NCBI GenBank assembly: GCA_003156805.1 | Contig: PMHV01000051.1 | Coordinates: forward strand, 1 to 64,000 | Length of the DNA: 64,000 nucleotides | Reading direction: 5' to 3' | DNA from: Acidobacteriaceae bacterium | Lineage (GTDB): Bacteria; Acidobacteriota; Terriglobia; Terriglobales; Acidobacteriaceae | Shown: positions 27,219 to 40,745 of the stretch, piece by piece | Layout of the letters: each line of letters starts with the position of its first letter | Position numbering within the stretch: position 1 is the stretch's first letter | Notes under the pieces: model-generated | The model's input: only the letters and a program-made list of their open reading frames with translations | Told to the model about the DNA's origin: nothing | Databases searched by the model: none | Position numbers and translations under genes: made by a program

Positions 27219-28448
27219 TTACAGCAACATGCCTGCGATGGACGCCGACATCAGATTCGCCATGGTTCCCGCGAGCATGGCGCGGATGCCAAGGCGGGCG
27301 AGTTCAGCTCTTTTGTTCGGCGCGAGCGCTCCGATGCCACCGATCTGAATGCCGATCGAACTCAGGTTGGCGAAGCCGCAAAGCGCGAATGTGGCAATGG
27401 TGAAAGAGCGCGGATCAAGCCCCGCTTTCATCGGCCCCAGCATCGAAAATGCCACCAATTCATTCAGCACCATGCGTGTGCCAAGCAGGGTTCCGATCAG
27501 ACCGCAGTCACGCCAGGGAACCCCAATCACCCAGGCAATGGGCGCGAAGAGGGCGCCGAAAATCTTCTCGAGACTCTCTGGAAACCAGGCCAGCCAGTGA
27601 TGGATTCCACCGAAGATGCCGTCCACCAGCGCGACCAGCGCCAGAAACGCAATCAGCATGGCAGCGATGTTCAAAGCCATATGCAGGCCATCGGTGGTTC
27701 CCCGCGCGACTGCGCCCAAAAGGTTTTCTTCCTTCTCGGCTTTCTCTTCGTCCTCGGGCATCACGACGCGTCCGGCGGTTCGCGACTGCTCGGTTTCGGG
27801 CACGAGCATCTTCGCCATCAACAGCGTGCCGGGCGCGGTCATAATCACCGCGCTCAGCAGGTGTTTGGGCTCGATGCCGAATGCGATGTAGGCCGCCATG
27901 ATTGCGCCGGAAACGTGGGCCATTCCGCTGGTCATCACGGTCATGAGTTCCGAGCGTGTCAGATCGGGCAGAAACGGGCGGATGGTCACGGGCGCTTCGG
28001 TTTGTCCCATGAAAATACTGGCCGCGATGTTGAGCGATTCGGCGCCGCTGGCGCCCATTACGCGGGTCATCACCCATGCCGCAAGCTTAATGATGGGTTG
28101 CATGATCCCGAAGTGATAGAGCACGGCGAACAACGCGCAGATGAAAATGACGGTCGGCAACACCTGAAACGCGAAAAAGAAGCCGAGATGAGAGCTCTGC
28201 CGGCCGAGATCGCCGAAAACAAATTGCGACCCGACAAATGAATAATTCAGCAAACGTGTGACTACGTCGCCGGCTTTCTGAAAAACCCGCCGCCCGGCGT
28301 CGATTCGCAACACACATACCGCAAACGCGAACTGCAAACCTAATCCCCACGCCACGGTTTTCAGGCGAATGGCGCGCCGGTTGGTAGAGAATGCGTAGGC
28401 CAGAGCCAGCATCGCCAAAAGCCCGAGAATTCCAGTGTAGCGTCCCAT
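27219..28448 (-). CDS. concentrative nucleoside transporter, NupC/CNT family
   Basis: Cation-coupled nucleoside uptake across the inner membrane. 409 residues with about 10 hydrophobic segments. Family motifs are the central SLNIAASIFMGQTEAPVTI and the late CGFANLSSIGIQIGGI. ATG at 28448. It lies 27 bases after the pyrimidine-nucleoside phosphorylase gene in a cdd-deoA-nupC-hydrolase order that fits one nucleoside-salvage operon. Confidence 0.93.
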   Translation of the reverse strand: MGRYTGILGLLAMLALAYAFSTNRRAIRLKTVAWGLGLQFAFAVCVLRIDAGRRVFQKAGDVVTRLLNYSFVGSQFVFGDLGRQSSHLGFFFAFQVLPTVIFICALFAVLYHFGIMQPIIKLAAWVMTRVMGASGAESLNIAASIFMGQTEAPVTIRPFLPDLTRSELMTVMTSGMAHVSGAIMAAYIAFGIEPKHLLSAVIMTAPGTLLMAKMLVPETEQSRTAGRVVMPEDEEKAEKEENLLGAVARGTTDGLHMALNIAAMLIAFLALVALVDGIFGGIHHWLAWFPESLEKIFGALFAPIAWVIGVPWRDCGLIGTLLGTRMVLNELVAFSMLGPMKAGLDPRSFTIATFALCGFANLSSIGIQIGGIGALAPNKRAELARLGIRAMLAGTMANLMSASIAGMLL

Positions 28449-28475
28449 TCAGTTTCTCTTTTCAGTTTCTCACTG

Positions 28476-29828
28476 TCAGTTTGTTTTGCCGGATTTTTCG
28501 ATCACGCGATGGATCAACGGCCTTTTCTCGCGCGGCGGCGAATCCGCAATCTGGCAACTTTCCTCGATCAACTGCCTGGCCCTTGCCGCGCGGTTTTCCA
28601 CGCGATAGTGAATGGTGGCAAGCGGCTCGCCCGCGGAAACCCGGTCGCCAACTTTCTTGTGAAGAACGATTCCTACCGCCGGGTCCACCGAATCTTCTTT
28701 GCGTTCGCGACCTCCGCCGAGAATGACGCAGGCCGTTCCAACCTGCTCACACTGTAGAGAAGCGAGATAACCGTTCTTCGGGCTGGGAACCGCCATTGTA
28801 TGCGGCGCCCGAGGCAGTTTTCTGGGATCGTCGATGGTTCGGGGATCTCCGCCCTGCAATTCCACCATCTGCCGAAACTTCTCCAGAGCCTGGCCGGAAG
28901 AAATCAATTTCTCGCTCCTCTGTTTTCCATCGGCGACTGTACCGGAAACTCCACCGAGATACAGCATCCATCCCGCAAGCTCCAGGCAGAGTAGCCGCAG
29001 ATCCTCTGGACCTCCGGCGCGAAGAACATCGACCGCTTCCACAACTTCGAGCGCATTTCCAATCATGTTTCCCAGCGGCTGATCCATATCGGTGATGAGC
29101 GCAACCGTTCGTTTGCCCATGCGCTCGCCGGTTTCCACCATAAGTTCCGCAAGAAAAACGGCATCGGCTTCTTTCTTCATAAATGCGCCGGAGCCGGTTT
29201 TGACGTCGAGCACCAGCGCCTCGATGCCTTCGGCGAGTTTCTTGCTCATGATGGAAGCGCAGATCAGGTAGGGGCTTTCCACCGTGCCGGTCACATCGCG
29301 CAGAGCATAGAGTTTGCGATCGGCAGGGGCGATCTCCGCGGTTTGGCCGATCATGGCGCAGCCACAAGTCTCGAGCACGCGACGGAACTGAGTTACAGAA
29401 AGATTCACGTTGAAGCCGGGGATGGATTCAAGCTTATCCAGCGTGCCACCCGTGTGACCGAGGCCGCGGCCGCTGATCATCGGCACAGCCACTCCGGCAG
29501 CAGCGGCCAGCGGAGCTAGCACCAGCGAAGTTTTGTCGCCAACGCCGCCGGTGGAGTGCTTATCGACCTTTTTCGCTGGAAGCGAAGATAGATCGAGCAC
29601 CTCGCCCGAGTGCAGCATGGCATCGGTGAGGACGGCGGTTTCGACTTTTGTCATGCCGCGAAGAACAACCGCCATCAGCCACGCTGAAACCTGGTAGTCG
29701 GGAATTTCGTCGCGGGTGTAAGCGCTGATCAAAGACTCGATTTCGTGCCGCGACAACTCGCCGCCATCGCGTTTCTTGCGAATCACGTCAATGGCACGGA
29801 AGGTTTGTGCGGCCGAAGCTTGGCTCAC
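28476..29828 (-). CDS. deoA: thymidine / pyrimidine-nucleoside phosphorylase
   Basis: Phosphorolysis of thymidine, uridine or deoxyuridine to base and (deoxy)ribose-1-phosphate. 450 residues, family-normal. The signature SGRGLGHTGGTLDKLE is at about 118-133, preceded by the phosphate-binding KHSTGGVGDKTSLVLAP; the C-terminal domain has the GGGRERKEDSVDPAVG turn. Start is GTG at 29828, sharing GTGA with the stop of cdd, so the two are translationally coupled. Whether it prefers thymidine or uridine cannot be told by eye. Confidence 0.94.
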   Translation of the reverse strand: MSQASAAQTFRAIDVIRKKRDGGELSRHEIESLISAYTRDEIPDYQVSAWLMAVVLRGMTKVETAVLTDAMLHSGEVLDLSSLPAKKVDKHSTGGVGDKTSLVLAPLAAAAGVAVPMISGRGLGHTGGTLDKLESIPGFNVNLSVTQFRRVLETCGCAMIGQTAEIAPADRKLYALRDVTGTVESPYLICASIMSKKLAEGIEALVLDVKTGSGAFMKKEADAVFLAELMVETGERMGKRTVALITDMDQPLGNMIGNALEVVEAVDVLRAGGPEDLRLLCLELAGWMLYLGGVSGTVADGKQRSEKLISSGQALEKFRQMVELQGGDPRTIDDPRKLPRAPHTMAVPSPKNGYLASLQCEQVGTACVILGGGRERKEDSVDPAVGIVLHKKVGDRVSAGEPLATIHYRVENRAARARQLIEESCQIADSPPREKRPLIHRVIEKSGKTN

Positions 29829-30277
29829 TGGAGGCGGAATCCTTCGGGAAGAAGTTCGGTGATGTGAGCGTGCCTCGGTCCATTGGACCCATGAAAGAAG
29901 ATGACGGCATCAGGGCCGAACTCATAAATTACCTGACGGCATGCGCCACACGGCGCGCAGGGAGCGCCCTTGTCATTGGCCACGGCAACTGCGCGAATCT
30001 CGATCTTCGGCCCCAATTGCGCGACCGCGGAGAAAATCGCGGTTCGCTCTGCACAATTGGTCATTCCATAGGACGCGTTTTCCACGTTGCAGCCGGAGAA
30101 GATGTCGCCGCTTGCCGTCAAGATCGCAGCGCCGACCCGGAAGTTCGAGTAGGGAGCGTGGGCGTTTTTCATCACATTCTTTGCGCACTGCAACAACTTT
30201 TCGCGCATGTCATCCGAAACAGTTATTTGGGGCATGACAAGAAAGTCTCGCACAGTCTTCGCAAAATTGTGCGCCAT
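29825..30277 (-). CDS. cdd: cytidine deaminase
   Basis: Zinc enzyme converting (deoxy)cytidine to (deoxy)uridine, the step before DeoA. 150 residues, the homotetrameric short form. Zinc-site motifs NCAERTAIF (Cys and catalytic Glu) and PCGACRQV (two Cys) are present, and SNFRVGAAI is the nucleoside-binding entry. ATG 30277 is preceded by TGAGGG at good spacing; ATG 30235 is a weaker alternative. First gene of the salvage operon. Confidence 0.95.
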   Translation of the reverse strand: MAHNFAKTVRDFLVMPQITVSDDMREKLLQCAKNVMKNAHAPYSNFRVGAAILTASGDIFSGCNVENASYGMTNCAERTAIFSAVAQLGPKIEIRAVAVANDKGAPCAPCGACRQVIYEFGPDAVIFFHGSNGPRHAHITELLPEGFRLQ

Positions 30278-32124: not shown

Positions 32125-32694
32125 CTATCTCTCCATCAACAAAACTTTCTCCGCGCCGTCAACCTCGGTTAACTTCACTTCGATCACCTCGTTCATTGTT
32201 GTCTGGACGTTTCGGCCCACGAAGCTGGCCTCGACCGGCAACTCACGATGTCCGCGGTCAATCAGTACGCAGAGCTGCACTCGCCGCGGCCGCCCGTGCG
32301 AGAACAATGCATCCAGCGCGGCGCGCGTCGTGCGTCCGGTAAAGAGAACATCATCGACCAGAACAATGTTCTGGTCCTCGATGGAAATCCCGATCTCTTT
32401 TTCTTGTACCACGGGCTTGGGCCCGAGCGTCGATAAATCGTCGCGATAGAAAGTAATATCGAGCGTTCCGACGGGGACCTTGGCATTTTCGATGCGGGCG
32501 ACGATCTTGCCCAGGCGTTCCGCGATCGGCACACCCCGGCGGCGAATCCCCACCAGCGCCAGTCGTTCGATACCGCCGTTCTTTTCCACGATTTCGTAGG
32601 CGAGCCGCACCAGCGTGCGATCGATTTCCGATGCGGACATCAATTGCGCTTTCTGGCGCAGCCCGGTATCTCGAGAAACATTTTCAGCATTCAT
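32125..32694 (-). CDS. pyrR: bifunctional PyrR: pyr regulator / uracil phosphoribosyltransferase
   Basis: 189 residues of the PyrR family. The PRPP-binding signature VLVDDVLFTGRTTRAA is present, with the LVGIRRRGVPIAERL loop and a dimer-face DLSTLGPKP segment. In many bacteria PyrR attenuates pyr transcription by binding mRNA in response to UMP; no pyrB or pyrC is next to it here. ATG at 32694. It lies 120 bases downstream of kynureninase, so may be transcribed from the same long minus-strand run. Confidence 0.92.
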   Translation of the reverse strand: MNAENVSRDTGLRQKAQLMSASEIDRTLVRLAYEIVEKNGGIERLALVGIRRRGVPIAERLGKIVARIENAKVPVGTLDITFYRDDLSTLGPKPVVQEKEIGISIEDQNIVLVDDVLFTGRTTRAALDALFSHGRPRRVQLCVLIDRGHRELPVEASFVGRNVQTTMNEVIEVKLTEVDGAEKVLLMER

Positions 32695-32814: not shown

Positions 32815-34098
32815 TCAAGCGACCGAGCCCACAGCAGCCACAAAGCGTTGCGCGAAACGGTAAACATCTTGATAGGAATTGTAAAGTGGCACTGGAGCAA
32901 CCCGAAAAGTATCCCGCGATCTCCAGTCGCCAAAGATTCCTTCTCCGGCCAGACGCTCACAAAGCGATTGCCCACCACGGGGAACTCGAAGGGAAAGCTG
33001 CGCGCCGCGCCTTTCACTTTCATGCGGAGTGATGATGGAAAACGCAGCAGATTCAGCCTGATTCAACAGGAACTCCAAATAACCTGTGAGCTTCACGCTC
33101 TTTGCGCGCAAACTCTCCATGCCCACGGCGTGAAAAATATCCATCGACGCCCGTAGCGGCGCCAGGCTGAGAATGGGCGGATTGCTCAACTGCCATCCCT
33201 CGGCCCCCGCCATCGCCCGAAAGTTTGGCCCCATCTCGAAACGAGTCTGCTCCTCATGTCCCCACCAGCCGGCGAAACGCGGCAACGTTTCGGCATGCGC
33301 GTGCCTCTCATGAACAAAACAGCCCGCCACCGCTCCCGGCCCGCCGTTCAAGTACTTGTAGCTGCACCACACGGCGAAGTCCGGCCCCCAATCGTGGAGT
33401 TTGAGCCGCAAATTGCCGGCGGCATGCGCCAGGTCGAAACCGACCACGCAGCCCTGCGCATGGCCCGCCCGCGTGATGCGCTCCATGTTGAATGCCTGGC
33501 CGGTCGCATAGTTCACACCGCCCAGAAGGATCAGTGCAATCGACTCGCCTTCGTTCCCGATCAACTCTTCAATATCCTCATCGCGAAGGCAGGACTCATC
33601 TGGACGAGGCGTCAGTTCTATCAACGATGTTGCAGCGTCGAGCTCGTGAAATCCGATCTGCGATTTAATTGCATACTGATCGGATGGGAAAGCCGCGCGC
33701 TCGATGACGATTTTGTGTCTGTTACGCGTCGGCCGGTAAAACGAAACCATCATCACGTGCAGATTTACCGTGAGCGAATTCATTACTACAACTTCGACCG
33801 GCTTCGCACCCACCAGCTCAGCCGTTTGCTCGGTGACCAGCCGGTGATAGGGCATCCATGGATTTCGTGCATGAAAGTGTGCCTCTACGCCAAGCTGCGC
33901 CCAGTCGCGCAATTCCTGATGGATGGACTCTCTCGCCGTTTTGGGCTGCAGTCCGAGAGAATGGCCGCACAAATAAATGCAGTTGTCACCGCTTGCCGTC
34001 TTCGGAATCCAGAACTCATGGCGGTAAGTCGCCAGCGGGTCGCTGGCGTCCAACCGCATGGCAAACTCTTCGCCGGATTCAAAGCGGAAGTCGGTCAC
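32815..34098 (-). CDS. kynU: kynureninase
   Basis: PLP enzyme that splits kynurenine / 3-hydroxykynurenine into (3-hydroxy)anthranilate and alanine. 427 residues, family-normal. The PLP lysine lies in AVWCSYKYLNGGPG, preceded by VVGFDLAHAAGNL (Asp to pyridine N). Other marks are YLCGHSLGLQPK at the N-terminus and FGDWRSRDTFRVAPVPLYN at the C-terminus. Start GTG at 34098 overlaps the kynurenine monooxygenase stop by four bases (GTGA), so the two are coupled. Confidence 0.95.
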   Translation of the reverse strand: MTDFRFESGEEFAMRLDASDPLATYRHEFWIPKTASGDNCIYLCGHSLGLQPKTARESIHQELRDWAQLGVEAHFHARNPWMPYHRLVTEQTAELVGAKPVEVVVMNSLTVNLHVMMVSFYRPTRNRHKIVIERAAFPSDQYAIKSQIGFHELDAATSLIELTPRPDESCLRDEDIEELIGNEGESIALILLGGVNYATGQAFNMERITRAGHAQGCVVGFDLAHAAGNLRLKLHDWGPDFAVWCSYKYLNGGPGAVAGCFVHERHAHAETLPRFAGWWGHEEQTRFEMGPNFRAMAGAEGWQLSNPPILSLAPLRASMDIFHAVGMESLRAKSVKLTGYLEFLLNQAESAAFSIITPHESERRGAQLSLRVPRGGQSLCERLAGEGIFGDWRSRDTFRVAPVPLYNSYQDVYRFAQRFVAAVGSVA

Positions 34099-35456
34099 TG
34101 TGCTTGCACCAGTGGAGTGAGCTCGCGTTGAATCAAATCTCGAGCTTTGGTCCAGTCCAACTCTTCAACGCGATCGATGTTGCTACAAAGTTCGGTCAGC
34201 AAACGTTCTTGAGCCGCACCCCGGGCCAGCGCGAGCGAATACGGAATCCGATGGAAAGTCACCATCGCATATTTCGGCACAAAGAGTTGCGGATACTTAG
34301 CCTCGAGCGCCAACTCAACTTTCTTCCGAAATAAGAACCTGGGGTCCGCAACGCGGTCGCGCATCTCCGCGAAATTTTCGATCGCCATGGCGGCGATCGC
34401 ATCAGTATTGATTTTCCGCGCTCTTTCGAACTCTTCGAAGACGCGCGCCCATCGCGGACCGAACTTGTCCAGCAATTCCGCCAGACAAACGCAGTCTTCA
34501 AATCCGCAATTCAATCCCTGTCCGAAGAATGGAACGATCGCATGCGCCGCGTCGCCCAGAAGCAGAGCTCTGCCCTCCACATGCCATGGGGAGCACTTGA
34601 TCGTCACCATGGTCCCGGTTGGGTTGGCAAAATAGTTTTCCGCGAGCTGCGGCATCAGACGGAACGCGTCGGGAAAACGCGCCTGAAAGAATCGGGTCAC
34701 GTCCTCTCGCGCCGCCAGGCTGGCAAAACTGTCAGCGCCCTCGAATGGCAGAAACAAAATGCACGCGAAAGTTCCGTCGATGTTCGGCAGCGCGATGAGC
34801 ATGTAGTTGCCGCGCGGCCAGATATGCAGGGCGTGAGTCTCCAGCCGATGACGCCCTTCGGAATCCGCTGGAATGGTCAATTCTTTGTAGCCATAATCGA
34901 GATACTGTTGCGAGAAATTGAAGCGGTTCAGCTTCAGCATCTCCGCGCGAATGGGCGAGGCCGAGCCATCGCAGCCGATTACAACATCGGAAGCTACCGT
35001 TGTTTCGCCGCCATTGTCTTCGTTGCGCAATCGAAGTGCGCCCGTCTTCAAATCATATTCCGTGCAGCGTCGCTGAAAGTGAATTGCAACGCCTTGCGCT
35101 TCGGCTGCATTCAGGAGCTCCATGTTCAGTTCCGCCCGCGAGATCGAGTTGATGACCTCCTCTTCGTTTTTCCCGTACGGTTGGAAGGTAATCTCGCCGT
35201 TTAACCCGTGCATCATCCGCCCTCGCATCGGAATAATGATATTCCGCATGCGTTCCCACAACTCCGCCTGCTGCAATGCGAAAATGCCGCGGGTCGAAAG
35301 GGCGAGGTTGATGGAGCGCCCTGCATCAATTCGCGTTCGCCGCATATCGGCTCGGCGTTCATAGATTTCAACGGCCAATCCCCGTTTCACCAGCAGCATG
35401 GCCAACAGTGGGCCGTTCAGTCCGGCGCCGATGAGCGTTATTTTAGGAGAACTCAT
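34095..35456 (-). CDS. kmo: kynurenine 3-monooxygenase
   Basis: FAD- and NADPH-dependent aromatic hydroxylase that makes 3-hydroxykynurenine. 453 residues. The Rossmann FAD site LIGAGLNGPLLAMLL is at the N-terminus, followed by RRTRIDAGRSINLALS, and the second FAD motif is LLGDAAHAIVPFFGQGLNCG with FEDC. The C-terminal KARDLIQRELTPL region is typical of KMO. ATG at 35456. Gap of 40 bases after the fused ACMSD-TDO gene and coupled overlap with kynU. Confidence 0.94.
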   Translation of the reverse strand: MSSPKITLIGAGLNGPLLAMLLVKRGLAVEIYERRADMRRTRIDAGRSINLALSTRGIFALQQAELWERMRNIIIPMRGRMMHGLNGEITFQPYGKNEEEVINSISRAELNMELLNAAEAQGVAIHFQRRCTEYDLKTGALRLRNEDNGGETTVASDVVIGCDGSASPIRAEMLKLNRFNFSQQYLDYGYKELTIPADSEGRHRLETHALHIWPRGNYMLIALPNIDGTFACILFLPFEGADSFASLAAREDVTRFFQARFPDAFRLMPQLAENYFANPTGTMVTIKCSPWHVEGRALLLGDAAHAIVPFFGQGLNCGFEDCVCLAELLDKFGPRWARVFEEFERARKINTDAIAAMAIENFAEMRDRVADPRFLFRKKVELALEAKYPQLFVPKYAMVTFHRIPYSLALARGAAQERLLTELCSNIDRVEELDWTKARDLIQRELTPLVQAQ

Positions 35457-35496: not shown

Positions 35497-37380
35497 TCAT
35501 TCGGCCAACAACGTTCTCGCCTCCCACAATTCGGGAAAGAATTTTTTATCCAGGGTCAGCTTGAGATACGAAGCTCCGGCAGTGCCGCCGGTGCCCATGC
35601 GCACGCCAATGACCCGCTCCACCAGTTGAATGTGGCGCAGTCTCCAACTCACCACCAACTCGTCAAACTCGGTGAGCCTCTCACACACGTCAATCCAGTC
35701 GCGATGATGAAGCTCATCGTTGTAGAGCGCCCTTACCGCGCGTGCTCTCGCTTGAAATTGGTCGCTCGCGCTCTCGTTCTCCCCGGCCGGCGCCAGTTTG
35801 CCGATCTTCCGCAAGGCCGCGAAGAACACGTCATGCAAGGATGGCTCTCGCAGCCGCCGCTCCAGCCGCGCGTGAGCCTCAGGCGTGGGCTTGTGGTAAC
35901 GCAGCATTTTCTCATCTTTCAGCCCACACAGGAATTCGAGCTCCCGGAATTGCTCAGACTGAAATCCGCTCGCCGGCTCCAGCTTGTCGCGAAACGCCAG
36001 AAAATGCGTGGGCAACATGGTTTCCAGAATCGTGAATTGCTCCACCAGCACGCGCGTGATCTCGGTGCAGCGCCGCAGCAGCCGCGCCGCCTCATACACT
36101 CCATCCCACGAATTCGCGTTTCCGCTCACCGCGCTCAAATTCGCAACCACGGCGTCAAGGTCGTGCAACAGCTCCTTGAACCAGAGCTCGTAAGTTTGGT
36201 GGGTGATGATAAACAGCAACTCATCGTGATGTGGCGGAGAGGACTGCATATCCTGCAAGCTGAGCAACTCGGGAACTTTCAGATAGGAGCTGTAGGTAAG
36301 CTGGCGGGTTTCCACGGACTTTGGCGAACCAACTACGGCCGTTGCTTCCCTTTCAGAGATTTGATTGTCCGCACTACGGTCCAGTTCACGGTCGAGCCTG
36401 AGAAACTGACGTGCGTTTGCGCTCAACAGCCTGGTTTTCGTCGATTCCGGCAAGAGGCTCTCACGGATGAGCGCTCCAACCCGTTCTTCGCCCAGCGGAA
36501 ACGGATAATCCGAGCCCAGCAGCACATGGTCCTCGCCCATTGTTACCACCAGAAATTGCAGCGTACGATCGTCGAACACGGCGGAGTCAACATTGATGCG
36601 GTTCAGATAATAGCTTGGCGGAAACTCACAATGACCACGCGCCACGGGATGATGATGCCACGCGTTTTCCAAGCGTCCCAGCAGAAAGGCAAAGCTTCCT
36701 CCGCCGTGGGCGAAGCAGATCCGCAGAGTCGGCGGCAAGCGGTCGAGAGCCCCGCTCAGAATCAGCGCAACCATCGAAAGCTGCGTCTCGGCAGGCATGC
36801 CCACCGTCCACGGCATCATGTAGTTCGGCATGCGCGAGGGCGCCATCATCTCCCAGGGATGTACCAGCACGGCGGCATTTTCATCGGCGCAGTGATGAAG
36901 AAATGTCACGATCCCGGGATCGTCAAGATTCTTTCGGCCAACGTGATTTCCGATTTGCACACCCAGATGTCCAGCGCGCATGCAGCGGCTGAGTTCCTTG
37001 CACGCCACATCAATATCCTGCAGCGGAACCTGGCACAGCGATTTCAGCCTGCCTTTTCCCTGGCTGCACAGATCGAGAGCTGCGTCGTTAAATAACTGCG
37101 CGCAATCTAGTGCGTGTTCCACGGGACGGCCGTAAGCAAACAACACGGGCGTCGCAGAAATCACCTGCAGGTCTACGCCGTCACGGTCCATCTCCTGAAG
37201 GCGAACCTCAGCATCCCAGCACGCGGAGTAAATGTGGCGGAAAAAACGGTCGCCGACCATGATGTCGGCCTTCCCCGGCTCCGTATGTTTGATCCACGGC
37301 CAGTTCGGCGTACCGAAGCGTTCGGCAAGATCAGGCCACGAGCGCGGGAAGAAGTGATTGTGAATGTCGATGACTTGCAT
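35497..37380 (-). CDS. fusion protein: ACMS decarboxylase (N-terminal) + tryptophan 2,3-dioxygenase (C-terminal)
   Basis: A single 627-residue frame encoding two pathway enzymes. Residues 1 to about 330 are 2-amino-3-carboxymuconate-6-semialdehyde decarboxylase: metal ligands His7 and His9 (IDIHNHFFP), His174 (VLVHPWEM), His225 (CFAHGGGSF) and Asp291 (LLGSDYPFP), numbering that falls on the known ACMSD ligands. A linker of about 30 polar residues follows. From about 362 it is heme tryptophan 2,3-dioxygenase: HDELLFIITHQTYELWFKEL, SGFQSEQFRELEFL, the proximal heme His in SWRLRHIQLVERVIG and GTGGTAG. Both halves look complete. Start chosen at ATG 37380, two bases after the 3-hydroxyanthranilate dioxygenase stop; the frame extends to a GTG at 37419. 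TDO starts the pathway and ACMSD acts late, diverting ACMS from NAD synthesis to catabolism. Confidence 0.93.
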   Translation of the reverse strand: MQVIDIHNHFFPRSWPDLAERFGTPNWPWIKHTEPGKADIMVGDRFFRHIYSACWDAEVRLQEMDRDGVDLQVISATPVLFAYGRPVEHALDCAQLFNDAALDLCSQGKGRLKSLCQVPLQDIDVACKELSRCMRAGHLGVQIGNHVGRKNLDDPGIVTFLHHCADENAAVLVHPWEMMAPSRMPNYMMPWTVGMPAETQLSMVALILSGALDRLPPTLRICFAHGGGSFAFLLGRLENAWHHHPVARGHCEFPPSYYLNRINVDSAVFDDRTLQFLVVTMGEDHVLLGSDYPFPLGEERVGALIRESLLPESTKTRLLSANARQFLRLDRELDRSADNQISEREATAVVGSPKSVETRQLTYSSYLKVPELLSLQDMQSSPPHHDELLFIITHQTYELWFKELLHDLDAVVANLSAVSGNANSWDGVYEAARLLRRCTEITRVLVEQFTILETMLPTHFLAFRDKLEPASGFQSEQFRELEFLCGLKDEKMLRYHKPTPEAHARLERRLREPSLHDVFFAALRKIGKLAPAGENESASDQFQARARAVRALYNDELHHRDWIDVCERLTEFDELVVSWRLRHIQLVERVIGVRMGTGGTAGASYLKLTLDKKFFPELWEARTLLAE

Positions 37381-37382
37381 GT

Positions 37383-37913
<531 letters not shown>

Positions 37914-38345
37914 TCATGGCTCCTCTGTCAGCGGCTTGTAAGCTATAGCTTTGATCTCGATGAGCAAGTGCGGATGCGGCAATTGATGTACGGCTACCGT
38001 GGTTCGTGCCGGACCGTCGTAGTTGAAATATTGCCCGTACACCTCGTTGTAGCCGGCGAAGTCGTTCATGTTCACAAGATAGGTCGAAATCTCCACCACA
38101 TCTTCCAGTCCCGCCTGCGCACTCTCCAGAATATCGCGGATGTTCTCGATCACGGCGCTGGTCTGTACGCGAATGTCGAGCCGGGTTGTTCCGAACTCAT
38201 CGGCCTCGGCGCCGGCAATCGTGTTATCGGCGCGGCGCGCGCTGGTTCCCGACACAAACAGAAAATCTCCGGCGCGCTTGATGTGCGGAAACTTGCCCCG
38301 CGGCAGCGCTTTTCCCTCGACGACTTTGCCTGCTGTTCTATTCAT
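37914..38345 (-). CDS. RidA-family 2-aminomuconate deaminase
   Basis: 143 residues from ATG 38345 (GTG at 38369 is an alternative). The RidA/YjgF fold is marked by [39 protein letters not shown] and the closing [13 protein letters not shown]. The [16 protein letters not shown] form is that of aminomuconate deaminases such as AmnD, which convert 2-aminomuconate to 4-oxalocrotonate with ammonia release. Its place between 2-aminomuconate semialdehyde dehydrogenase and 3-hydroxyanthranilate dioxygenase agrees. Stop 37914-37916 abuts the next start. Confidence 0.9.
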
Positions 38346-38382
38346 TTCTTCAACGCCGCGTTCAGCCACGGTTCTTAAAGCA

Positions 38383-39837
38383 TCACAGCTGAATGCAAAT
38401 ATTGTTCAGCTCCGAATAAAAATTCAGTGAGTGGATTCCGCCTTCGCGTCCAATGCCCGATAGCCCCACGCCACCAAACGGCGTCCTCAGATCGCGCAAG
38501 AACCAGCAATTCACCCACGTAATTCCAACGTTCATGCTTTGCGCCACGCGGTGGCCTCGTTTGAGGTCACTCGTCCAGATCGAAGCTGCCAACCCGTACT
38601 TCGTGTCGTTGGCCATCGCGATCGCCTGCTCTTCCGAATCAAACGCAGCAATGTGGCACACCGGTCCGAAGATCTCTTCCTTTACGCACCGGGCCGATTC
38701 CGGCAAACCAGTATAGATCGTCGGTTGAACGTAGAATCCCTGGTCGCGGCCGTCGCCGAACTGAGGAACTCCGCCGCCGGTTACAACAACCGCTCCTTCT
38801 TCGCGCGCCAGCCGATAGTACGAAAGCACTTTCTCTCGATGCTGCGCCGAGATCAACGGCCCAAGCTCAGTGCTGCGATCCGTGGGCCAGCCCGCATTTA
38901 ATCGTTCTGCCTTCTGCTTCAGCGCCTCGACGAATCGATCGAAAATGTTTCGTTCCACATAAACGCGTTCCGCGCACAAGCAGACTTGTCCCGTGTTGAG
39001 AAACACCGCTTCGGCCAATCCATCAACCGCGTTTTCAAAATTGCAATCGGCAAAAACGATCGCGGCATTCTTTCCGCCCAGTTCAAACGAGACCGGTTTC
39101 ACGGCCGAAGCCACCGCTTGCATAATGGCCGCTCCAGTCTTCGATTCGCCGGTGAAGGTGACCGCGTTCACGTCGGCATGTTGCGTGAGAAACTCTCCCG
39201 CCGACCCCGGCCCAAAACCGTGAACCACGTTGTAAGCCCCATTCGGAATCCCCGCTTTTTGCATCGCCTCCGCAAGAAGCGTGGCTGTGGCGGGAGTCTC
39301 TTCCGAAGGCTTAACCACCACCGCGTTCCCGCAAGCCAGCGCCGGCGCCACTTTCCACGTAAGCAAAAGCAGAGGCAGGTTCCAGGGAGTGATTACTCCG
39401 ACCACGCCCAGCGGCTTGCGCACCGCATAGTTCAGCGCGCTCTTCCCATCTGGAGTTTCGGTCTGAAACGCTTCCACCCCCGCCATCTTCACGAGATCGG
39501 CAAAGACGCGGAAATTGGCCGCCGCGCGGGGAACGTCAAGCCTCGAAGCTAGTGAAATCGGTTTGCCCGTGTCGGCAACTTCCGCCTGGACGAAGCAATC
39601 AAACCTCTTCTCGATTGCGTCCGCAACCTTGTGTAGTCGCGCCGCCCGTTCGCGAACTGTGAGCCCGCCCCATTCTCCCCGCAACGCGCGCCGGGCCGCG
39701 TGCACTGCCTCGTCCACTTGCTCCTGATCGGCTTCGGTGACTTGCGCGATTACGCTGCCGTCCGCCGGATTCACGTCCGCGAACTCGCGCTTGCCGCGTA
39801 CAAACCGGCCATCAATATAGTTTAGGAATGACTTCAC
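38383..39837 (-). CDS. 2-aminomuconic 6-semialdehyde dehydrogenase (ALDH8-like)
   Basis: NAD-dependent dehydrogenase oxidising the ACMSD product to 2-aminomuconate. 484 residues from GTG 39837 ([13 protein letters not shown], the usual family opening). The open frame runs back to 39954, but that would overlap rfbD and add an Arg-rich tail foreign to the family. Motifs: [38 protein letters not shown] (Glu) and [17 protein letters not shown] with catalytic Cys. First kynurenine-pathway gene in the run, 71 bases after rfbD and 13 bases ahead of the deaminase stop-side neighbour. Confidence 0.9.
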
Positions 39838-39908
39838 GAAATCCCCGGCAGGCCTCGCCAATCGTAGCAGGCGGCAAGAGCACGAGGCAATCTTGCGAAG
39901 GCTTCTTC

Positions 39909-40745
39909 TTAACTCCGCCGCTCTTCCAAGTAACGCCGCAGCGCGTCTTGCCACGCTGGCATTTCAATTCCGAGACGACGCAAACTCTCCGCAGACAAAA
40001 CCGAATACGCGGGCCGCGCCGCAGGCCGTACAAATTGCTGGCTGGTTACCGGCCGCACAATCGTTGCCACGCCCAAGCCCCGCAGAATCTCAACCGCAAA
40101 TTCAAACCAGGTACAGGCGCCCGCGTTCGTAACGTGAACGATTCCGTTCGCGTGCTCCCGGCACAGCCGGATGACGGCACGCGCTAAATCGACCACATAG
40201 GTTGGAGAGCCCCGCTGGTCATTTACCACATCGATCGCCGGACGGTTCGCCGCCAGTTTGAGAATCGTATCCGGAAAACACTTTCCGCCGGTTCCGAACA
40301 GCCACGACGTTCTCACGATGCAGCATTCCGGCATCAACTCGAGCAGCTTGATTTCCGCTTCCGCCTTGGTCCGCCCATAAACGCTCTGCGGATTGCGCGC
40401 GTCGCCGGTCTCATAGGGAGTCGTCTTCTTTCCGTCGAAAACATAGTCGGAGCTGAGGAACAAAAGTCTTGCGTTGACTTCTTTCGCTGCTCTCGCCACG
40501 CTCACCGCTCCGTCGCGATTCACTCGGAACGCCAACTCTGGATTGCCTTCGCATCCATCTACGTCCGTGTATGCGGCCGCCAGAACTACCCACTCCGGGC
40601 GCGCTCCCGCCAGCGCTTCGCGCACGCTCTCTTCATCGCGAATGTCGGCGTCGCGCGACCCAAGTCCAATTACGTCGTCCCCGCTCCACTCCCGCATGAG
40701 CGCTTTTCCCAGCAGCCCGGAGGCGCCAAAGATCGTGACTCTCAT
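39909..40745 (-). CDS. rfbD: dTDP-4-dehydrorhamnose reductase
   Basis: Last step of dTDP-L-rhamnose synthesis. 278 residues. NAD(P) site IFGASGLLGKALM at the N-terminus and the catalytic YGRTKAEAE (Tyr, Lys), with LSSDYVFDGKKTTPYE before it, are diagnostic of RmlD. Last gene of the rfbB-A-C-D set, 18 bases after rfbC. Confidence 0.95.
   Translation of the reverse strand: MRVTIFGASGLLGKALMREWSGDDVIGLGSRDADIRDEESVREALAGARPEWVVLAAAYTDVDGCEGNPELAFRVNRDGAVSVARAAKEVNARLLFLSSDYVFDGKKTTPYETGDARNPQSVYGRTKAEAEIKLLELMPECCIVRTSWLFGTGGKCFPDTILKLAANRPAIDVVNDQRGSPTYVVDLARAVIRLCREHANGIVHVTNAGACTWFEFAVEILRGLGVATIVRPVTSQQFVRPAARPAYSVLSAESLRRLGIEMPAWQDALRRYLEERRS

Follow-up and report, generated by a model that had tools for sequence, protein, structure and literature searches.

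The window, a stretch of 64,000 nucleotides from an Acidobacteriaceae contig, carries a genuine fusion gene that places two tryptophan-degradation enzymes in one chain: tryptophan 2,3-dioxygenase (TDO), which catalyzes pathway entry, and ACMS decarboxylase (ACMSD), which acts near the end of the pathway. A preliminary description of this DNA had given the correct coordinates for the gene without naming its strand, which is minus. Translated from the ATG at 37380 to the stop ending at 35497, the gene yields a 627-residue product with a stop only at its end, confirming that the frame is single and uninterrupted. The plus-strand reading of the interval does not give this protein. The gene, its domains, and the neighboring pathway genes are listed in Table 1.

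Table 1. Coordinates of the fusion gene, its parts, and the surrounding kynurenine pathway genes in the window.
Feature	Positions	Strand	Residues	Basis
2-Aminomuconate semialdehyde dehydrogenase-like (AMSDH)	38383–39954	minus		Best NCBIfam match 2-hydroxymuconic semialdehyde dehydrogenase, above cut-off; conserved neighbor; role from position
Rid family protein, probable 2-aminomuconate deaminase	37914–38369	minus		Pfam Ribonuc_L-PSP; role inferred from position
3-Hydroxyanthranilate 3,4-dioxygenase (3-HAO)	37383–37913	minus		Pfam; above NCBIfam cut-offs
ACMSD-TDO fusion gene	35497–37380	minus	627 aa	Translation, Pfam, nearest solved chains
ACMSD domain	36394–37380	minus	1–329	Pfam, nearest solved chain, structure match
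Linker, hypervariable	36301–36393	minus	330–360	Alignment, low model confidence
TDO domain	35500–36300	minus	361–627	Pfam, alignment, structure match
FAD monooxygenase, probable kynurenine 3-monooxygenase (KMO)	34095–35456	minus		Pfam FAD_binding_3; role from position
Kynureninase (KYNU)	32815–34098	minus		TIGR01814, 447.7 bits (cut-off 246.4)

Both halves of the protein fall in known Pfam families. Residues 4–329 matched Amidohydro_2 (PF04909) with 101.8 bits against a gathering cut-off of 26.4, and the best stretch for Trp_dioxygenase (PF03301) began at residue 355 and scored 189.4 bits (cut-off 34.9). The TDO half is not assignable to the NCBIfam equivalog TIGR03036 (trp_2_3_diox), since it scored 237.1 bits against a cut-off of 390.7, although the match covers model positions 4–263 of 264. 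The nearest solved chains were Pseudomonas ACMSD for the first half (392.7 bits, residues 4–329) and Xanthomonas TDO for the second (183.5 bits, residues 360–624). When the whole 627-residue protein was searched against its own genome, no second match was found at E 0.001. A single-chain structural model made with an alignment of 39 rows (mean pLDDT 85.4, pTM 0.55) contained two mostly confident domains that matched ACMSD and TDO structures, with the same two nearest relatives as by sequence. Residues 340–365, in the linker region, had pLDDT values below 50, and the linker is predicted to be loose.

The active sites of both enzymes are intact. Structure alignment with the ACMSD of Pseudomonas fluorescens (PDB 2HBV and 6MGT) revealed a common fold over 327–329 aligned columns at approximately 52% identity. 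The fusion shares with this protein the metal ligands His7, His9, His174, and Asp291, as well as His225, Arg48, and Arg236, which correspond to His9, His11, His177, Asp294, His228, Arg51, and Arg239* in P. fluorescens numbering. Arg51, Arg239*, and the active-site histidine are named in the titles of PDB entries for ACMSD structures, and the human equivalents of the active-site residues are given in PMC9021598. Unlike the fusion, in which TDO follows in the same chain, the P. fluorescens enzyme stands alone. The five ACMSD residues named in the preliminary description (His7, His9, His174, His225, and Asp291) are at those positions in the translation and alignment, and the two TDO histidines that it had reported are also present, at His394 and His583.

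For the TDO half, we checked Tyr363, Tyr366, Leu367, Phe390, His394, Phe460, Arg464, His583, and Thr597 by alignment. We take His394 to be the distal histidine and His583 the heme histidine. His583, His394, Phe390, Arg464, and Thr597 are the equivalents of His240, His55, Phe51, Arg117, and Thr254 in the TDO of Xanthomonas campestris, of which His240 is the heme ligand and His55 the distal histidine; these five are the same in 43 of 43 relatives. Tyr113 of X. campestris TDO is replaced by Phe in the fusion, and human TDO also has Phe at this position. The X. campestris enzyme (PDB 2NW7 and 7P46) has the same helical fold, and its distal and proximal histidines, Arg117, Thr254, Tyr24, and Tyr27 all have equivalents in the fusion. 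It is a stand-alone protein, whereas the N-terminus of TDO in the fusion is tied to ACMSD.

Together, these 16 residues (seven in ACMSD and nine in TDO) are invariant in every covering sequence among 43 relatives. The ACMSD residues are the same in 42 or 43 of 43; the only shortfall comes from a partial sequence that is gapped at six of the positions. We also estimated dN/dS for fused pairs, 12 of which had dS between 0.05 and 0.9; these were thinned to five pairs sharing no sequence. Values were 0.06–0.08 for ACMSD and 0.02–0.06 for TDO and were higher for the linker, where one of the five pairs exceeded 1 on 27 codons. In these five pairs, strong purifying selection thus acts on both halves. 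A protein in which one half persists as a dead scaffold could explain the score of TDO below the TIGR03036 cut-off, but such selection on both halves, along with 16 invariant active-site residues, makes this explanation extremely unlikely.

The two conserved halves flank a linker of a different character. Our alignment contained 44 fused sequences, including a partial one, and 42 were scored against the window sequence. Mean identity to the window was 0.80 for ACMSD and 0.81 for TDO but 0.15 for the linker block, which ranges from 9 to 51 residues in length and has a high content of Ala, Pro, Ser, and Glu. The polar linker of about 30 residues described earlier is confirmed. A Gly-Cys-Pro motif occurs in six of the 44 fused linkers (L203, L204, L205, L049, L061, and L110) and in the leaders of both unfused TDO genes of genus g2 (L111 and L207), and is absent from the leaders of L055–L059 and L127–L129. 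Cys-Pro motifs can bind heme, and TDO is a heme enzyme.

A loose linker could be accessible to proteases, and the linker in the window contains one GTG, although without a Shine-Dalgarno (SD)-like 4-mer. Cleavage after translation, or an internal start, might then release free TDO, leaving two separate mature enzymes. However, the linker is poorly conserved, with the mean identity of 0.15 given above, and 19 of the 44 fused genes have no ATG, GTG, or TTG within it. A start codon behind an SD-like 4-mer was found in three of the 44 and was absent in 41. Because so few linkers contain such a start, most fused genes are unlikely to yield a separately translated TDO, and we regard release of TDO by either route as very improbable.

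We examined the distribution of the fusion in the window genus, the family, and the phylum. In the genus, 38 of 45 genomes, including the one that contains the window, had a match and seven did not. The fusion was full length in one frame in 35; in G015 and G022 a frame break divides it into two pieces, and its pieces were on separate contigs in G031. The breaks in G015 and G022 (loci L112 and L113) lie in or near the join, and both are draft genomes; either error or decay could be responsible. In a scan of 398 genomes of the family, 62 had a match at E 1e-50 and 40 carried the fusion at full length in one frame. These 40 comprise the 35 genus genomes and G058, G500, G505, G555, and G634 from four other genera, for a total of five genera. 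The G500 genome is one contig of 5,650,368 bases. A one-frame join in 40 of 398 genomes, including this single contig, rules out a sequencing or assembly artifact. The join is also beyond chance, as it recurs in 44 fused sequences; apart from the partial one, no two of these are more than 97% identical.

In a phylum sample of 396 genomes, 108 had a TDO match at E 1e-20, and G000 and G014 carried the fusion. We compared the pathway proteins of the window other than TDO with TDO frames over 400 aa (E 1e-8) and found no other TDO fusion in the 15 further frames of that length in the phylum sample or in L085 and L106. These 15 frames and the two loci look like chance open frames.

The fusion gene and the five neighboring genes in Table 1 form a six-gene kynurenine operon in the order AMSDH, Rid, 3-HAO, ACMSD-TDO, KMO, and KYNU, with intergenic gaps of 13, 0, 2, 40, and −4 bases. 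This order is conserved wherever a fused locus extends far enough to show it. Since the fused frame begins 2 bases past the 3-HAO stop, translation of the ACMS-forming enzyme is probably coordinated with that of the ACMS-consuming domain. The KMO candidate had no match above cut-off among the best 25 of 60 NCBIfam families; its best score was to the violacein oxygenase VioC, far under the cut-off of that family. A candidate kynurenine formamidase (PF04199) was found in 22 of 37 genus genomes scanned and is on another contig in the window genome. By eye, positions 27219–30277 of the window hold a row of genes that we take to encode a nucleoside transporter, a pyrimidine phosphorylase, and a cytidine deaminase, with pyrR not far away at 32125–32694.

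Outside the fused loci, the two genes occur in several arrangements. In the loci listed from other phyla, ACMSD and TDO are separate genes, either flanking KYNU and KMO (L063, L065, L066, L070, and L071), side by side on opposite strands (L062, L064, L069, L072, and L074), or otherwise apart (L068). Closer to the fusion, two genomes from genus g2 of the same family, G045 and G542, carry ACMSD and TDO as separate, adjacent, unfused genes whose frames overlap, in contrast to the single frame of the fusion. Gene order around this tandem pair matches that of the fused loci where covered (the G542 stretch begins inside the cluster). The unfused halves are related to those of the fusion, at 61% for ACMSD and 75% and 71% for TDO. 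As these genomes manage with separate adjacent genes, the join is dispensable.

The tandem pair was considered as the state that preceded fusion and was set aside, as the TDO tree points instead to a later split. In the careful TDO tree, the AU test rejected a single clade of fused rows (P = 0.0055, or 0.0495 when L051 is excluded), and the unfused genes of G045 and G542 were placed among the fused rows. A single fused clade was not rejected in the careful ACMSD tree (P = 0.217), and in the quick ACMSD tree, the fused rows grouped together (SH-aLRT 85) next to the tandem pair. The first TDO tree included L060, whose sequence begins at the edge of a contig, as an unfused row, and the second omitted it; L097 was omitted from the second ACMSD tree, and the partial sequence L073 has a long branch. 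Both one fusion with a later split and repeated fusion are possible origins. L051, which has the shortest linker, has an ACMSD half that clusters with the fused genes, and its TDO half pairs with the unfused TDO of L128 in the first tree and falls outside the rest in the second. Exchange of one half, or an independent fusion event, may explain this pattern.

The hypervariable linker, in both length and letters, and the unfused adjacent genes in G045 and G542 would both be expected if neighboring operon genes simply came to share a frame, with both halves working and no gain from the tether; the operon by itself already suggests co-expression. We consider a neutral join of this kind a real possibility, if a somewhat unlikely one, because one frame has been kept in 40 of 398 family genomes and five genera through many changes in linker length, and frame breaks occur only in the two draft genomes.

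We favor the interpretation that the fusion is a genuinely bifunctional enzyme whose TDO tetramer brings the dimer-only ACMSD together in pairs and in equal dose, and assign it a probability of about 0.55. TDO is a tetramer in other species. The calculated mass of one chain is approximately 71 kDa and that of four chains approximately 285 kDa. The heme-containing C-terminal half would open the pathway by converting tryptophan to N-formylkynurenine, and the N-terminal half would decarboxylate ACMS, the unstable product of the adjoining upstream 3-HAO, before it cyclizes to quinolinate. The two steps are not consecutive in the kynurenine pathway, as the preliminary description had pointed out, and with no common intermediate, direct hand-over is not expected. 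The join would instead act through assembly and dose. A TDO tetramer could hold four flexibly tethered ACMSD domains, close enough to give two ACMSD dimers, and the tether would keep ACMSD paired and equal in number to TDO, so that capacity for tryptophan entry and functional branch-point enzyme would come in matched amounts. We infer the activity of both halves, the quaternary structure, and the benefit of the join.

Published work on the component enzymes and on other fusions is consistent with such a role. According to PMC9021598, the ACMSD monomer is inactive because the neighboring subunit supplies one arginine, and activity depends on concentration; both arginines (Arg48 and Arg236) are kept in the fused relatives that cover them. 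The same text reports that ACMS turns into quinolinate by spontaneous cyclization. Since this reaction proceeds unaided, ACMSD kept at hand by its attachment to the first enzyme of the pathway would guard a reactive branch point. Metabolic fusions often bring together successive steps or components of one complex, and those at branch points and around problematic intermediates form a noted class (PMC4921024); the same source cites work in which fusion by itself yielded no channeling. Besides this cited case, the TDO score under the TIGR03036 cut-off, the pTM of 0.55 for a single-chain model, and the separate genes of G045 and G542 count against the bifunctional model.

What the join would mean for NAD depends on where quinolinate comes from. 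3-HAO was found in 38 of 45 genus genomes, the same 38 that have the fusion or its pieces. Quinolinate synthase (NadA) was found in three (G011, G030, and G042), none of them among the 38 with the pathway. The seven without the pathway include all three with NadA and four without it (G001, G006, G020, and G039). A Fisher test of this contrast gave P = 0.0025 (post hoc and uncorrected for kinship). In a 12-row tree, NadA of G030 and G042 is distant from its G011 counterpart, which clusters with those of other family members; with the genes on two such unlike branches, more than one event probably underlies the contrast. NadC was present in 40 of 45 genus genomes and 35 of the 38 with the pathway, and nicotinate salvage (PF04095) in 40 of 45 and 34 of 38. 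Across the genus (G000–G044), NadA is thus absent in 42 genomes and NadC retained in 40.

These data bear on a possible alternative in which the kynurenine route is the sole source of new quinolinate in the window genus, and the dose of ACMSD per TDO sets the share of ACMS that passes to quinolinate and NAD. The absence of NadA from all 38 pathway genomes against its presence in three of seven others, the retention of NadC, and the two unlike NadA branches agree with a fixed split. On the other hand, four of the seven genomes without the pathway also lack NadA, and salvage is available in 34 of 38. NadC also persists in eight genomes without NadA or an above-cut-off 3-HAO (G020, G039, G046, G048, G049, G052, G053, and G054; the G049 match to 3-HAO is under cut-off), so NadC alone is no proof of quinolinate supply. 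Of the five fused genomes checked outside the window genus, four have NadA (G058, G500, G505, and G555, but not G634); the fusion therefore also exists in bacteria that do not require the pathway to make NAD. Among genomes whose completeness is not given, NadA was not seen in those of the fused loci L049, L051, L061, and L073, and when those of L054, L060, and L055 are included, it was seen only in that of L055. In the unfused pair, NadA is absent in G045 and present in G542. On balance, we consider a fixed split unlikely as the reason for the join.

A more elaborate version is a built-in flux splitter in Acidobacteria that lack NadA. The N-terminal segment of TDO lines the active site of the neighboring subunit, and the linker would enter TDO at this segment. 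Tryptophan or heme occupancy of TDO might then alter ACMSD pairing, and thus the allocation of ACMS to energy or to NAD, with the tryptophan route as the only source of new quinolinate. We regard this idea as highly speculative.

The preliminary description was therefore right about a true fusion with intact sites and a polar linker. Its proposal that tryptophan degradation is paired with diversion of ACMS away from quinolinate and NAD fared less well, as the NadA evidence cuts both ways; a coupling of tryptophan breakdown to ACMS diversion is putative. With NadA absent from all 38 pathway genomes, a complete shut-off of quinolinate could be costly there, and a fixed split would describe the window genus better than simple diversion.

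The preliminary description was also unaware of any described enzyme of this type. We found no description of an ACMSD-TDO fusion among the titles and abstract openings listed in a search of one open-access library. Within the literature covered, the joining of ACMSD to TDO is not described, while the component families are known. A related case is KYU-HAAO of the alga Prasinoderma coloniale, in which two kynurenine pathway enzymes are also fused (PMC7455551), but this protein differs in that it joins other enzymes, catalyzes consecutive steps, and belongs to a eukaryote.

Collectively, our results indicate that the joint is real and conserved in some soil Acidobacteria, where it links the entry step of a pathway to a branch-point step several reactions later and has been kept by selection across five genera. 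As ACMSD activity depends on pairing in other species, the fusion offers a natural test of dose and assembly control at a branch point. In the window genus, the kynurenine pathway may also feed NAD synthesis, and a genus of Acidobacteria may thus make NAD from tryptophan, as animals do.
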